From an uncultured Hyphomicrobiales bacterium (GTDB taxonomy: Bacteria; Pseudomonadota; Alphaproteobacteria; Rhizobiales; Beijerinckiaceae), in NCBI GenBank assembly GCA_903861645.1, contig CAIOVE010000020.1:1-64000 (forward strand): a stretch of 64,000 bases of DNA. Reading direction: 5' to 3'. Positions 290 through 35,456 of this stretch are shown in pieces (position 1 is the first letter of the stretch; every line of letters starts with the position of its first letter). Made by a program: the position numbers and the translations under genes. The notes below the pieces were generated by a model that was not told where the DNA came from, did no database searches, and saw only the letters and a program-made list of their open reading frames with translations.

Positions 290-432
290 GGTCCTTGCCT
301 TTCTCGTGTAGGGCCGCGGGGCGGCGCCGATACAAAAATCTGGCACGGCATAATAAGTCAGTCTATTTAAATACTAGAATTATTGTTGATCTGGATCATG
401 GTGTGCTCGCAACCGGTCTTTCCGGGCCGTGC

Positions 433-26485: not shown

Positions 26486-28395
<1,910 letters not shown>

Positions 28396-28477
28396 AAGTG
28401 TCTCCCAATCGACCCGGCCACGCCGGCGAGAGGAGGCTTATAACATTACTGTCCGGGTATTCGACTGGTTTGGCGGA

Positions 28478-28855
28478 TCAGGCCATTTCGCTCGTCATTG
28501 TCAGATAGGCGCGGCCCCAGCAATGGGCCATGTGCTCCGAGATGGAGATAGCCTTGCTCTTGATGGGCTCGGGCAGGCTGGCCTCGACGGCGGGAACCCA
28601 GAGCTCGCGCCAGCGATCGAAATGCTCCTGGCCCATTTTCAGCTTCAGATGGGGCGGGAAGGGCGCGGCCTTGTAGCGCTCGGTTGCGAGCAGCGCCCCG
28701 GACCAGAAGTTGTCCATGGTCGTCAGATGGGCGTCCCAGTCCTTGATCCAGCCATTGAAAACCGGACCCAGCAGGTCGTCCGCCCGCGCCGCGTCGTAGA
28801 AGCGCCTGACGCAATCATGGATGGCGGTTTCATCGGCGATCGCTGCAACGGACAT
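28478..28855 (-). CDS. Group III truncated haemoglobin
   Basis: 125 residues with the class III truncated globin pattern: VRRFYDAARADDLLGPVFNG, a WDAHLTTMDNFWSG segment, FDRWRELW with the proximal-helix region, and a late HMAHCWGRAY. The family binds O2 or NO; campylobacter Ctb is the studied relative. The ATG at 28853-28855 has AAAGGAG upstream, replacing a longer frame. A perfect FNR/FixK-type box lies 46 bases upstream, pointing to low-oxygen control. It follows no operon partner; thiM starts 83 bases downstream of its stop. Confidence 0.9.
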   Translation of the reverse strand: MSVAAIADETAIHDCVRRFYDAARADDLLGPVFNGWIKDWDAHLTTMDNFWSGALLATERYKAAPFPPHLKLKMGQEHFDRWRELWVPAVEASLPEPIKSKAISISEHMAHCWGRAYLTMTSEMA

Positions 28856-28901
28856 GACGGACTCCTTTGAGCGACCATCGGGGGTCGACCGCGCGCGGCC
28901 C

Positions 28902-28915
28902 TTGATCTGAATCAA
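28902..28915. promoter_or_regulatory. Perfect FNR/FixK-type box
   Basis: TTGATCTGAATCAA is an exact TTGAT-N4-ATCAA palindrome, the consensus for FNR/FixK-family activators of alphaproteobacteria. Its centre is about 53 bases upstream of the truncated haemoglobin ATG, leaving room for transcription starting near 28868 if it acts as a class II site at -41.5. It is the only such exact site I found in the window. Confidence 0.8.
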
Positions 28916-28989
28916 AGGCGCTTCGCGGCAGATTGATTGGCGGCTTGGCGCGGATCGTATTCGATATGATGTTGTTGATAGTATTCATG

Positions 28990-29010
28990 TGTTTATTACA
29001 AAAATAAACA
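28990..29010. promoter_or_regulatory. AT-rich perfect inverted repeat upstream of the GGDEF-EAL gene
   Basis: Arms TGTTTATT and AATAAACA around ACAAA form a perfect 8-bp repeat in the 275-base divergent region between the truncated haemoglobin and the GGDEF-EAL gene. It could be an operator or an upstream hairpin. A second, weaker repeat (CGAATA...TATTCG) lies at 29042-29064. Confidence 0.4.
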
Positions 29011-29130
29011 TATTTTAATTCATGGCCGATAACGACTAGTGCGAATAAAATAAGTAAATATTCGTTAGTATCCTCATGCAAGTGTGCTCTGGCGGCGGTC
29101 GCCGCGAAATAAGCATGGGAGATCAGCTTC

Positions 29131-31845
29131 GTGCGTGGGTGGTCGTTTGTAAGTCGGATCGCCGCCCTCGCCTTCGCCGTGATGGTTGGCGCGTTGTTCG
29201 CCATCTCGATGGAGCTCTGGAAGCTGCGCGACGACGCGCTGGATCAGGCGCGCGAGAGCGCCGGCAATCTGGCGACGGTCCTGGCGCGGCAGACGTCGTA
29301 CGCCGCTGGCGCGATGGAACTGGTGCTTGACGAAAGTCTCTCGCGGCTCGCGGCGCTTGACGCCGATACGCCCGAGCATTTCGGTCAATTGGCCGGTCGG
29401 CGTGAAATTCATGACTTTCTGGCCGCCCGGCTGGCCAAGTTGCCTCAAGCCGATGTCATCAATGTCGTCGACGCGCGTGGCGTTGTCGCGGCCTCCAGCC
29501 TCGATTATCCGACGCGGCCCGTGGATCTGTCCGACCGCGACCATTTCCGGCATTTCGCGACAGAACGGGATTCCTCGATTTTCGTTGGCGCGCCGGTGTT
29601 CAGCAAGTTCGGCGGCGCGTGGTCGATGTTTTTCGCGCGCCGTATTGAAAGCGCCAGCGGCGAATTCCTGGGCGAAATCGTGATCGGCGCGCGCCCGGCG
29701 CAGTTCATGAGGCTTTACGACGCCATCGGCGATGTCGATGGCGCCTCCTTCATGCTCCTGCGGCGCGATGGCGCGATTTTCCTGCGGCATCCCGACACGA
29801 CCGAGCGGGCTGGCGAAATGTTGCCGCGGCGCACGGGATGGTACGAGGCGGTGGGAAAAGGCGGCGGATATTTTCGATCCAACGGACTGTTTGACAATGA
29901 GTCCCGTTGGATCGCCGTGCGACCGATTGAAAAATTTCCCCTTGTCGTCAACGTGGCGATTTCCGAAACCAAGGCGCTGAGCGTCTGGCGTTCGCGGGCG
30001 AACGTGATTTTGCTGGGCAGTCTCGCCGTCTCCGCCGTCATGTCGCTGCTGATCTGGATGCTTGTCGACGGCTACCGGAAAGTGCGGGCGTCAAGGCGCG
30101 AGGTGCTGGAACGGGAAGCGAGCCTCGCCGCCGCGTCGCGTGAACTGTCGCGCGCCAATCTGCGCTTCCATTCCGCCCTGACGCACATGCGACAGGGACT
30201 CGCCATGTTCGACGCCAGTGATCGCATCGTCATCCATAATCGCGGCTACGCGGAACTCTACGGCCTGTCCAGCGATCAGATGCCGCCGGGCACGCCGTTG
30301 CAGGACATTCTGGACATGCGCGTGGCCAACGGCATGTACACGATGTCCGGGCCGGACGCCTATATGCGCAGGCATCGCGAGCATTTGGGCGACGACGGCG
30401 ATGAAATGGAACAGTTGCGCGACGGCCGCTATATCGTCCTGACCCATCAGAACATGCCCGACGGCGGCTGGATCACCACCCACGAGGACGTTACCGAGCG
30501 TCAACGGGCGATCGCCCGCATTTCGCACATGGCGCATCACGACGCGCTGACCAATCTGGCCAATCGTTCGCTGTTCCTCGAATGTCTCGAAAAACTGGCG
30601 CGCGACGCGGGGCAGGGGCGCCGCTACGCCGTGCTGTTGATCGACCTCGATCAGTTCAAGGCGATCAACGACACCTATGGCCATTCGGCGGGCGATGCCT
30701 TGCTGTGGGCGGTCGCGGCGCGCATGCAGCAGGCCGTCGAGCCGGGGCAGACAATCGCCCGGCTTGGCGGCGACGAATTCGCCATCGCCGCGTGGCTTGG
30801 CCCCGGCGAGAACGAGAGCGTCATTCGACGCCTCGCCGACCGGCTGCTCGACATCATCCGCGAGCCCTATCTGATCGAGGATCGCGAACTGAAAATCGGC
30901 GTGAGCATCGGCATCGCCCTGTCGCATGACCAGACGCGGGAATCCGGCGACATCATGCGTTTCGCGGACATGGCGCTTTATCGCGCCAAGGCCGAGGGCA
31001 AGAATTGCCACCGGTTGTTCGAGCCGGAAATGGAGGAAAATATCCGGTCGCGACGCGAGCTCGCGCGCGATCTCGACAGGGCGCTGGCGCGCGCCGCCCT
31101 CGATGTCTTTTACCAGCCCGTGGTCGACGCGGCGACGCGCGAGGCGCGGGGCATGGAAGCGCTCGCGCGGTGGCGGCATCCCGAGCACGGGTTCGTTTCG
31201 CCCGCCGTGTTCGTCTCCATCGCCGAGGAGGCGGGCCATGTCATCCGACTGGGCGATTTCGTGCTGGAGCGCGCGTGTCACGATGCGCTGGGCTGGCCCT
31301 CGTCGGTCAAGGTCGCGGTGAACATATCGTCCATCCAGATCGCCAGTTGCGATTTCGTTGAAAAGGTGCGCCGCGTTCTGGCGCGATCGGGACTGCCGGC
31401 GCGGCGTCTGGAACTTGAAATCACCGAGTCGGTGCTGCTCGCCAACAACGACCATAATCTCTCGGTCTTGCATGAACTGCGCGGTCTTGGCGTATCCATC
31501 GTGCTCGATGATTTCGGCACGGGCTTTTCCTCGCTGAGCTATCTGAACCGCTTTCCGTTCGACAAGATCAAGATCGACAAGTCGTTCATCGACGGACTTG
31601 GCGTCGACGCCGGAGCGACGGCGATCGTATCGGCGACGACCAGCATTGCCCGCGCGCTGGAGGCCGTCACCACCGCCGAGGGCGTCGAGACGGAAGCGCA
31701 GGCGACCCTTTTGCGCGCGGCCGCCGTCACCCAGCTTCAGGGCTATCTCGTCGGCAAGCCGCTCCCCGCCGCCGACTGGGCGTTCGTGGATGGCGTCGCG
31801 CGGGTGCGCGACGATAAAGTCGATCCGGCGTCGCGCGCCGCCTGA
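29131..31845 (+). CDS. GGDEF-EAL protein with a periplasmic Cache-type sensor and PAS domain
   Basis: 904 residues. Two membrane helices (about 5-30 and 290-310) bracket a dCache-like sensor with LVLDESLSRLAALD and SDRDHFRHFATERDS. A PAS domain follows (MRQGLAMFDASDRIVIHNRGYAELY, near 350), then a diguanylate cyclase domain with intact GGDEF near residue 546, then an EAL phosphodiesterase domain with EAL near 676, ITESVLL, DDFGTGFSSL, KIDKSFI and AEGVET. Both catalytic domains look complete. Starts at GTG 29131 with GGGAGA upstream. It would control cyclic di-GMP in response to an external small ligand. Confidence 0.93.
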   Translation: MRGWSFVSRIAALAFAVMVGALFAISMELWKLRDDALDQARESAGNLATVLARQTSYAAGAMELVLDESLSRLAALDADTPEHFGQLAGRREIHDFLAARLAKLPQADVINVVDARGVVAASSLDYPTRPVDLSDRDHFRHFATERDSSIFVGAPVFSKFGGAWSMFFARRIESASGEFLGEIVIGARPAQFMRLYDAIGDVDGASFMLLRRDGAIFLRHPDTTERAGEMLPRRTGWYEAVGKGGGYFRSNGLFDNESRWIAVRPIEKFPLVVNVAISETKALSVWRSRANVILLGSLAVSAVMSLLIWMLVDGYRKVRASRREVLEREASLAAASRELSRANLRFHSALTHMRQGLAMFDASDRIVIHNRGYAELYGLSSDQMPPGTPLQDILDMRVANGMYTMSGPDAYMRRHREHLGDDGDEMEQLRDGRYIVLTHQNMPDGGWITTHEDVTERQRAIARISHMAHHDALTNLANRSLFLECLEKLARDAGQGRRYAVLLIDLDQFKAINDTYGHSAGDALLWAVAARMQQAVEPGQTIARLGGDEFAIAAWLGPGENESVIRRLADRLLDIIREPYLIEDRELKIGVSIGIALSHDQTRESGDIMRFADMALYRAKAEGKNCHRLFEPEMEENIRSRRELARDLDRALARAALDVFYQPVVDAATREARGMEALARWRHPEHGFVSPAVFVSIAEEAGHVIRLGDFVLERACHDALGWPSSVKVAVNISSIQIASCDFVEKVRRVLARSGLPARRLELEITESVLLANNDHNLSVLHELRGLGVSIVLDDFGTGFSSLSYLNRFPFDKIKIDKSFIDGLGVDAGATAIVSATTSIARALEAVTTAEGVETEAQATLLRAAAVTQLQGYLVGKPLPAADWAFVDGVARVRDDKVDPASRAA

Positions 31846-33314: not shown

Positions 33315-35456
33315 ATGAGTCCCTTATTGCTGGTCATCATCGGCGGTCTATTGTCCGTCGTATACGGCGCTGTCACCATCACCCAATTGATGGCGGCCGA
33401 TGCGGGCTCGAAGCGCATGCAGGAGATCGCTGGCGCGGTCGCGGAAGGCGCGCAGGCCTATCTCAAGCGCCAGTACATCACCATTTCGATCGTGGGCGTG
33501 GTCATTTTCGCGCTGGTTGTCTGGCTGCTCGGCGTCAAGGAAGGCGTCGGCTTCCTGATTGGCGCGATTCTCTCGGGGCTCGCCGGCTTCATCGGCATGA
33601 ACGTCTCGGTTCGCGCCAACGTGCGCACCGCGCAGGCCGCGACCAAGTCGCTGGCTGGCGGTCTCGACATCGCCTTCAAGGCGGGCGCGGTAACCGGCAT
33701 GCTGGTGGCGGGTCTCGCCCTGCTTGGCGTGGCCGTTTATTATTACGTGCTGACCGGCCCGATGGGCCTCAAGCCGAATGATCGCTCGGTCATCGACGCG
33801 CTGGTGTCGCTGGGCTTCGGCGCCTCGCTGATCTCGATCTTCGCGCGTCTGGGCGGCGGCATCTTCACCAAGGGCGCCGACGTCGGCGCCGACCTCGTCG
33901 GCAAGGTCGAAGCGGGCATCCCCGAGGATGATCCGCGCAACCCCGCCACGATCGCGGACAACGTGGGCGACAACGTCGGCGACTGCGCCGGCATGGCCGC
34001 CGACCTCTTCGAGACCTACGCGGTGACGGTCGTCGCGACCATGGTGCTTGGCTCGATCTTCTTCGCCGCCAACGCCGCGACCCTTTCGGCCGCGATGCTT
34101 TACCCGCTGGCGATCTGCGCCACCTGCATCGTGACCTCGATCGTCGGCACCTACTTCGTCAAGCTCGGCGCCAATGGCTCGATCATGGGCGCGCTCTACA
34201 AGGGCCTGATCGTCACCGGCATCCTGTCGATTGGCGGTCTGGCGCTGGCGACCCAGTTCGTCACGGGCTGGGGCGAATTCGGCAAGGTCGCCGGCCTGAC
34301 GATCACTGGCTCCAATCTGTTCATCTGCGGCCTCGTCGGCCTGCTCGTGACGGGTTTGCTCGTGGTCATCACCGAGTACTACACGGGCACGGGCAAGCGC
34401 CCGGTCGTCTCCATCGCGCAGGCCTCGGTCACCGGCCACGGCACGAACGTGATCCAGGGTCTGGCCGTGTCGCTTGAGTCGACGGCCATGCCGGCCATGG
34501 TGATCGTGGGCGGCATTCTCGCCACCTACCAGCTCGCCGGCCTCTACGGCACCGCCATCGCCGTTACGACCATGCTCGGCCTCGCCGGCATGATCGTCGC
34601 CCTCGACGCCTTCGGTCCGGTGACGGATAACGCCGGCGGCATCGCGGAAATGGCGGGCTTGCCGAAGGAAGTGCGTCACGCCACCGACGCGCTTGACGCG
34701 GTTGGCAACACCACCAAGGCGGTGACGAAGGGCTACGCGATCGGCTCGGCCGGTCTCGGCGCCCTCGTGTTGTTCGCCGCCTACACCAACGATCTCGAGG
34801 CCTTCACCAAGAGCGGCGTCAAGTACTTCCAGGGCATGGGCACGGTCTCCTTCGACCTCTCCAACCCCTATGTGGTCGCCGGTCTGATCTTTGGCGGCCT
34901 CATCCCGTACCTGTTCGGCGGCATCGCCATGACGGCGGTGGGTCGCGCGGCCGGTTCGGTCGTCGAGGAAGTGCGTCGTCAGTTCAAGGAAAAGCCGGGC
35001 ATCATGGCGGGAACGGAGCGTCCCGATTATGCGCGCGCGGTCGATCTGCTGACCAAGGCGGCGATCAAGGAGATGATCATCCCCTCGTTGCTGCCGGTTC
35101 TGGCGCCGCTCGTCGCCTATTTCGGCGTGCTCTGGATCTCCGGCTCCAAGGCTTCGGCCTTCGCGGCGCTGGGCGCCTCGCTGCTCGGCGTGATCGTCAA
35201 CGGCCTGTTTGTCGCGATCTCGATGACCTCGGGCGGCGGCGCCTGGGACAACGCCAAGAAGTCCTTCGAGGATGGCTTCATCGACAAGGACGGCGTGAAG
35301 CACCTGAAGGGCGGCGACGCGCACAAGGCGTCCGTCACGGGCGACACCGTCGGCGACCCCTACAAGGACACCGCCGGTCCGGCCGTCAACCCGGCGATCA
35401 AGATCACCAACATCGTGGCCCTGCTGCTGCTGGCGGTTCTGGCCCACGGCGGCTGA
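33315..35456 (+). CDS. hppA: Membrane-bound proton-pumping pyrophosphatase (K+-independent type)
   Basis: 713 residues, about 16 membrane helices. It hydrolyses pyrophosphate to pump protons. The catalytic segment is visible as [20 protein letters not shown] followed by [20 protein letters not shown]. The K+-dependence position reads GNTTKA, with Lys where K+-dependent enzymes have Ala, so it is the K+-independent, H+-translocating class. Such enzymes are common in purple phototrophs, where they save energy in the dark. Single gene with its own terminator. Confidence 0.97.

Follow-up and report, generated by a model that had tools for sequence, protein, structure and literature searches.

Within the window (the whole 64-kb stretch of DNA that was analysed), a short globin gene on the minus strand is preceded by a palindromic site resembling the boxes read by regulators of the Fnr type, followed downstream by thiM, and faced on its upstream side by a divergently oriented gene for a multidomain GGDEF-EAL protein. 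The features of this locus are given in Table 1, together with genes elsewhere in the same genome that are preceded by similar sites (referred to as boxed genes).

Table 1. Features of the globin locus in the window, and other boxed genes of the genome.
Feature	Position	Strand	Basis or remark
Gene for predicted group III truncated haemoglobin, 125 aa	28478..28855	minus	PDB match, fold match, alignment
FNR-type box, TTGATTCAGATCAA in globin orientation	28902..28915	minus	Letters match two ChIP-bound FnrL sites; kept in the genus clade
Conserved G two bases past the box, as in TTGANCNNGATCAANG	28900	minus	21/23 globin loci, 26/28 ccoN loci
Predicted -10 element GATGGT	28874..28879	minus	A 24 nt past the box, the class II position
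Shine-Dalgarno-like AAGGAG	28862..28867	minus	Read from the sequence
thiM (hydroxyethylthiazole kinase), next gene downstream	27544..28395	minus	
Divergent dCache-PAS-GGDEF-EAL gene	29131..31845	plus	215 nt from the box to its start
Boxed ccoN (L002)			Fnr-type target
Boxed fnr-type gene (L010)			Fnr-type target
Boxed ubiD (L033)			Fnr-type target
Boxed ompW (L004)			Fnr-type target
Boxed hemN (L012)			TIGR00538 above cut-off
Boxed bchE (L009)			TIGR02026 above cut-off

By means of phmmer, we compared the encoded protein with the PDB and obtained Ctb of Campylobacter jejuni (2ig3) as the best match (E = 6.6e-11), plus two weak others. Likewise, when an AlphaFold2 model of the globin (32 sequences; mean pLDDT 94.7) was submitted to Foldseek, 2ig3 ranked first (TM 0.80, rmsd 1.7). 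More specifically, Tyr20, His43, His69 and Trp82 are invariant in all 32 aligned rows and align with residues that we take to be TyrB10, HisE7, HisF8 and TrpG8 of Ctb. The Pfam model Bac_globin scored 13.5 bits against a cut-off of 21; this model describes general bacterial-like globins and is not specific to group III, and a score under its cut-off is no defining failure of the assignment. The identity given in the preliminary description, a group III truncated haemoglobin, is thus upheld by sequence and by fold, the modelled 2/2 fold being nearest to Ctb. A second group III-like globin gene of the genome (C7:27808-28086; L123) lacks a box. To our knowledge, there is little agreement on what group III globins do physiologically; a C. 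jejuni ctb mutant is described as having no nitrosative-stress phenotype (PMC5577044).

The palindrome had been described as an exact TTGAT-N4-ATCAA lying 46 bases upstream of the start codon, and the sequence bears this out: the 14-mer TTGATCTGAATCAA is separated from the globin ATG (at 28855) by exactly 46 bases (28856-28901), and the window contains no second exact copy. When one mismatch was allowed, two matches were found in the window versus 0.91 expected, and 24 of 100 shuffles reached the same number, so that a count at window scale is uninformative as proof of the box. Across the whole genome (4.18 Mb in 108 contigs), the exact pattern occurs at seven sites versus one for the reversed control, and the relaxed pattern TTGAYN4RTCAA at 17 versus one. 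Moreover, the box scored higher than all 200 dinucleotide shuffles of the 250 bp upstream of the ATG (p = 0.005). An extended gene starting at a TTG within the box (ORF 28478-28915) was also considered, but the additional stretch is unlikely to be coding, because among relatives the gaps between box and ATG do not all differ by multiples of three. Near the left edge of the window (386-399) lies TTGATCTGGATCAT, which has one mismatch relative to the Fnr consensus.

To follow the box among relatives, we ran a profile of the globin against three overlapping genome sets: at order level 237 of 397 genomes gave a match, at family level 183 of 298 and at genus level 32 of 51. Every genus match scoring 100 bits or more was read (30 in all), along with a selection of the others. 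From the 124 loci read, eight duplicates (L025-L032, on the same contigs as L071-L075, L077, L079 and L080) and one locus with just 20 bp of upstream DNA (L080) were dropped before tree building and counting, leaving 115; a further 17 loci, 15 of them from family f35, were read later. First scans of the relatives, in which TTGA and TCAA ends were required, returned no box. A weight matrix derived from 24 FnrL ChIP sites, ignoring the spacer, was used instead on the 250 bp before each ATG, and a box was called when the matrix score was at least 10 and the site lay no more than 100 nt from the ATG. ccoN served as the positive control: 30 of its 45 listed matches were fetched, and 28 of these loci were boxed in a scan of 250-547 bp, i.e., longer than the 250 bp used for the globins. 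The matrix misses NnrR-type boxes (scores 2.0-8.9), and none of the 17 added loci reaches 10.

In the globin tree (115 rows, 149 columns, with many unresolved forks), a clade specific to the genus is supported at 100/99 and comprises 29 members with readable upstream DNA, the window included. This clade holds 23 of the 25 boxed rows. By subfamily, a box is present in 16/17 members of A, 7/8 of A' (L088-L095) and 0/4 of a paralogue branch (L136-L139), the six members without one being L086, L090 (from G445, in which Fnr is present) and the four paralogues. Twenty of the 23 clade boxes sit 44-52 nt before the ATG. Outside the clade, only 2/86 loci are boxed (L051 and L056, both from f35). This distribution, 23/29 versus 2/86, indicates that the predicted Fnr-controlled promoter of the globin was gained within this genus.

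Several loci merit separate description. The box of L051 and L056 is Fnr-like, has a gap of 56-64 and differs from TTGCGCTGCGACAA, a box discussed below. Six loci fall just under the threshold, namely, L105 and L109-L112 (9.7) and L126 (9.3); L105 and L109-L112, which belong to genus g5 of the same family, have in common a 14-mer like CTGACNGTKCTCAA / CTGACTGTGCTCAA with a gap of 24-27. The unboxed L136-L139 are second globin copies beside an MFS gene (with thiM in two), and in genomes G441, G414 and G428 of this branch the other globin copy is boxed. The unboxed A globin L086 comes from G409 (82% complete), which yielded neither an Fnr-type regulator match nor a ccoN match; joint loss or an incomplete genome is possible in this single suggestive case.

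Within the clade, the exact TTGAT-N4-ATCAA is found in only 2/23 boxes (window and L095), and the rest are mostly degenerate: 11 begin with TTGCG, and the commonest box, present in 10, is TTGCGCYRGATCAA. Boxes of the TTGCG type may be weak sites. At columns that the matrix leaves unscored, the boxed globin loci carry C at position 6 (20/23) and G at position 9 (21/23). These two bases, together with the G two bases past the box, agree with the published FnrN/FixK consensus as given in PMC4999443 (Table 1), and we have therefore counted them in favour of an Fnr-type site.

We then aligned the 23 boxed clade loci on their boxes, leaving out the six unboxed members and L080, and compared them with 28 ccoN promoters aligned in the same way (L167 and L170, in which no ccoN box was found, were left out). 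Among the 45 columns downstream of the globin box, the most conserved are the G at +2 and an A at +24 (19/23); the same columns stand out in the ccoN promoters, with A at +24 in 25/28 and T at +28 in 19/28. Column 24 shows no such conservation when the globin boxes are read on the opposite strand (IC 0.10). Thinning to 17 loci with <50% flank identity, a step that reduces kinship without removing it, left A at +24 in 13/17 (binomial 6e-7 versus 19% A). Eight other boxed genes of the genome are split, with A at +24 in four (ccoN, hemN, the ATPase and ompW) and another base in four. If the centre of the box is put at -41.5, this A takes the -11 position, which points to class II activation; the arrangement typical of that class (box near -41.5, -10 element about 23-28 nt past the box) is thus what the conservation pattern suggests. 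The implied transcript start would be 28867, at the AAGGAG, giving a predicted leader of twelve bases. The hexamer GATGGT is also found at this place in the ccoN promoters L160 and L169. A generic sigma-70 scan found no promoter.

Two Crp-family proteins of the genome, C29 and C93, carry the cysteine pattern C-X2-C-X7-C, a further central Cys and the recognition helix ETVSR, and the C29 regulator gene is itself boxed. Among solved structures, FixK2 and FNR come closest to them; among NCBIfam models, FnrL and FixK do, with scores below the cut-offs. Among five Crp-type proteins read, the ETVSR helix is present in only these two, which are the four-cysteine ones. A C29-like regulator (E ≤ 1e-10) was detected in 46 of the 51 genus genomes; where the globin is boxed, 22 of 23 genomes have it (hand tally). 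G428 (93% complete) has a boxed globin and no Fnr match, and in G404, also with a boxed globin, the Fnr match is a 52-residue fragment only.

The remaining boxes of the genome place the globin in familiar company. Six of the 17 relaxed sites stand before genes that are classical Fnr targets (ccoN, the fnr-type gene, hemN, bchE, ubiD and ompW), one is the globin box, and the other ten are found upstream of a heavy-metal ATPase gene, a trypsin-like protease gene or genes not known to be linked to Fnr, or else within ORFs, as assigned mostly by eye. The FnrL targets listed for Rhodobacter sphaeroides include ccoN, hemN, bchE, ubiD, ompW and fnrL (PMC2908626), a set that overlaps the boxed ccoN, hemN, bchE, ubiD, ompW and fnr of the present genome. 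In the same source, the FnrL-bound TTGATtcagATCAA (fnrL/hemZ; coxII) equals the window box, read in globin orientation, letter for letter, and the FnrL-bound TTGCGcaggATCAA of hemN has the same degenerate half as the commonest clade box. At the sites sharing the window's letters, the table of that study marks coxII and fnrL with '-' and only hemZ with '+', so that the letters alone do not tell activation.

Taking together the observed box, its conservation and geometry, the regulator sequences and the set of boxed genes, we read the sequence, with a probability of roughly 85%, as a predicted class II promoter through which Fnr activates the group III truncated haemoglobin gene. The box is very probably a functional Fnr-type site acting on the globin, in view of its kept position and ccoN-like spacing, and the globin is very probably switched on at low oxygen. 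The preliminary description had named the site an FNR/FixK box; the Fnr half of that name stands, whereas FixK is the less likely of the two because the two regulators that were found to fit carry four cysteines, as Fnr does. We infer Fnr binding, activation, the oxygen response and the function of the globin along the following lines. As oxygen becomes scarce, a [4Fe-4S] cluster would be held by one or both of the four-cysteine Fnr-type regulators, which would then dimerise and attach to the box; with the box centred ~41.5 bp before the transcript start, RNA polymerase would be recruited at the weak -10 element, and the globin would be produced alongside the cbb3 oxidase (ccoN), HemN, BchE and UbiD. 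Most likely, the globin would deal with O2 or NO in the vicinity of the high-affinity respiratory chain at low oxygen.

An alternative that we consider unlikely is that an NO-sensing regulator of the NnrR/DNR type reads the box, in which case the globin would be an NO-response gene. The sites of Fnr, FixK, NnrR and DNR overlap, E. coli FNR is itself described as NO-reactive, and precedents exist. In Bradyrhizobium diazoefficiens, bll6222, annotated as 'Group III truncated hemoglobin', is reported to be 17.8-fold up in anoxia and 17.1-fold lower in an nnrR mutant, is regulated in the FixLJ-FixK2-NnrR cascade, and is listed with the box TTGCGCTGCGACAA (PMC6710368). Similarly, ctb of C. jejuni, a group III globin gene whose product is the closest solved structure, is reported to be activated by the Crp-family regulator NssR (PMC4601167, PMC5577044). 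Both precedents also differ from the window globin. Although bll6222 is likewise an alphaproteobacterial group III globin gene with a Crp/Fnr-type box, it belongs to the NnrR regulon of a denitrifier (PMC6710368) and its box differs in one half, whereas for ctb and NssR the signal is nitrosative stress rather than oxygen and the host is an epsilonproteobacterium. The box type of bll6222 was recovered among 18 f35 loci, exactly in five (L193, L196, L198, L200 and L201) and as close variants in three (L192, L197 and L199), but it lies farther out there (gap 73-89), before a distant globin (78-83 bits versus 246 for the window). In addition, the genome has two COX1-family genes, one nearest CtaD and one nearest CcoN, with no NorB in this search of the COX1 family, and the restriction of the ETVSR helix to the four-cysteine proteins, among the five Crp-type proteins read, likewise argues against an NO sensor and for Fnr.

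The B. diazoefficiens precedent also bears on novelty. Low-oxygen induction of such globins by FNR/FixK had been called little described in alphaproteobacteria, which is too strong in light of the anoxic induction of bll6222 (PMC6710368). In the main texts of four alphaproteobacterial FnrL/FNR studies, including PMC2908626, words beginning with globin, hemoglobin or haemoglobin are absent, and within the accessible text of the open-licence PMC literature we found no report of a phototrophic alphaproteobacterium whose group III globin is under Fnr control. Fnr-like promoters have been claimed at 30/44 rhizobial globins (PMC4648194); we did not count this claim as support because the motif presented there is unlike TTGAT-N4-ATCAA.

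Less probable still is a role of the box at the divergent GGDEF-EAL gene, whether alone or together with the globin. The intergenic region that holds it is indeed common to both genes, with 215 nt between the box and the GGDEF-EAL start codon, and hppA is the divergent gene in eight boxed loci; hppA of B. diazoefficiens is likewise listed with a Crp/Fnr box and is reported as NnrR-dependent (PMC6710368). Yet the divergent side of the 23 boxed loci is variable, with hppA in eight, GGDEF-EAL in two and MFS in two (hand tally); the other 11, among them L078, which ends at a contig edge, show no reference gene of the window on that side within the DNA covered. Because the divergent genes vary among relatives while the distance between box and globin stays, the box is assigned, as a prediction from the sequence, to the globin and not to its divergent neighbour; the turnover of neighbours and the lack of a conserved column at the -10 place of the opposite strand make GGDEF-EAL or hppA unlikely as the true target. 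As for a functionless chance palindrome, the window as a whole is indeed expected to hold about one match when a single mismatch is tolerated, but the genome count of seven versus one, the nearly fixed place and the conserved -10 position make this scarcely credible.

As to the neighbours themselves, the boxed loci with a globin-hppA intergenic region are L071, L072, L073, L076, L079, L081, L088 and L093. In the window, hppA (proton pyrophosphatase; 33315-35456) lies ~4.5 kb away, past the GGDEF-EAL and MFS genes, and has no box of its own. On the downstream side, a thiM match follows the globin in 19/30 clade loci (hand tally). No terminator-like site was found in 28300-29200, and read-through from the globin into thiM is possible.

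Reaction-centre genes on the same contig (C20:82483-84147) mark the organism as a phototroph, and a link between the globin and a photosynthetic lifestyle had been considered natural. Within the genus, this link finds no support: when reaction centres were scored by PF00124 in the 51 genomes, an A or A' globin was present in 8/14 genomes with reaction centres versus 18/37 without (Fisher p = 0.76, uncorrected for kinship and completeness), and boxed globins occur in genomes of both kinds. Nor did we see co-occurrence of ccoN with the globin, a ccoN match being present in 21/26 genomes with the globin and 20/25 without.

Placing the globin in the Fnr regulon, with the geometry of ccoN, tells under which condition this globin should be studied. 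One globin lineage appears to have gained a predicted oxygen-controlled promoter within one genus, and the genome's other group III globin did not; as such, the promoter would be a fairly ordinary addition to a known Fnr regulatory network. A wider idea, which we regard as possible but doubtful, is that this group III globin lineage came under Fnr control at the base of the genus (support 100/99) and became a dedicated low-oxygen partner of the cbb3 oxidase and of HemN and BchE, which make haem and bacteriochlorophyll without oxygen, for example, by clearing traces of O2 or NO harmful to radical-SAM chemistry, and that a C-terminal HCW motif is part of that role. The motif comprises globin residues 111-113 and is shared by 26/30 clade members and by none of the 86 other globins read; the clade members without it are precisely L136-L139, the paralogue branch that has no box either. 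The cysteine of HCW alone is also present in L103 and L110.
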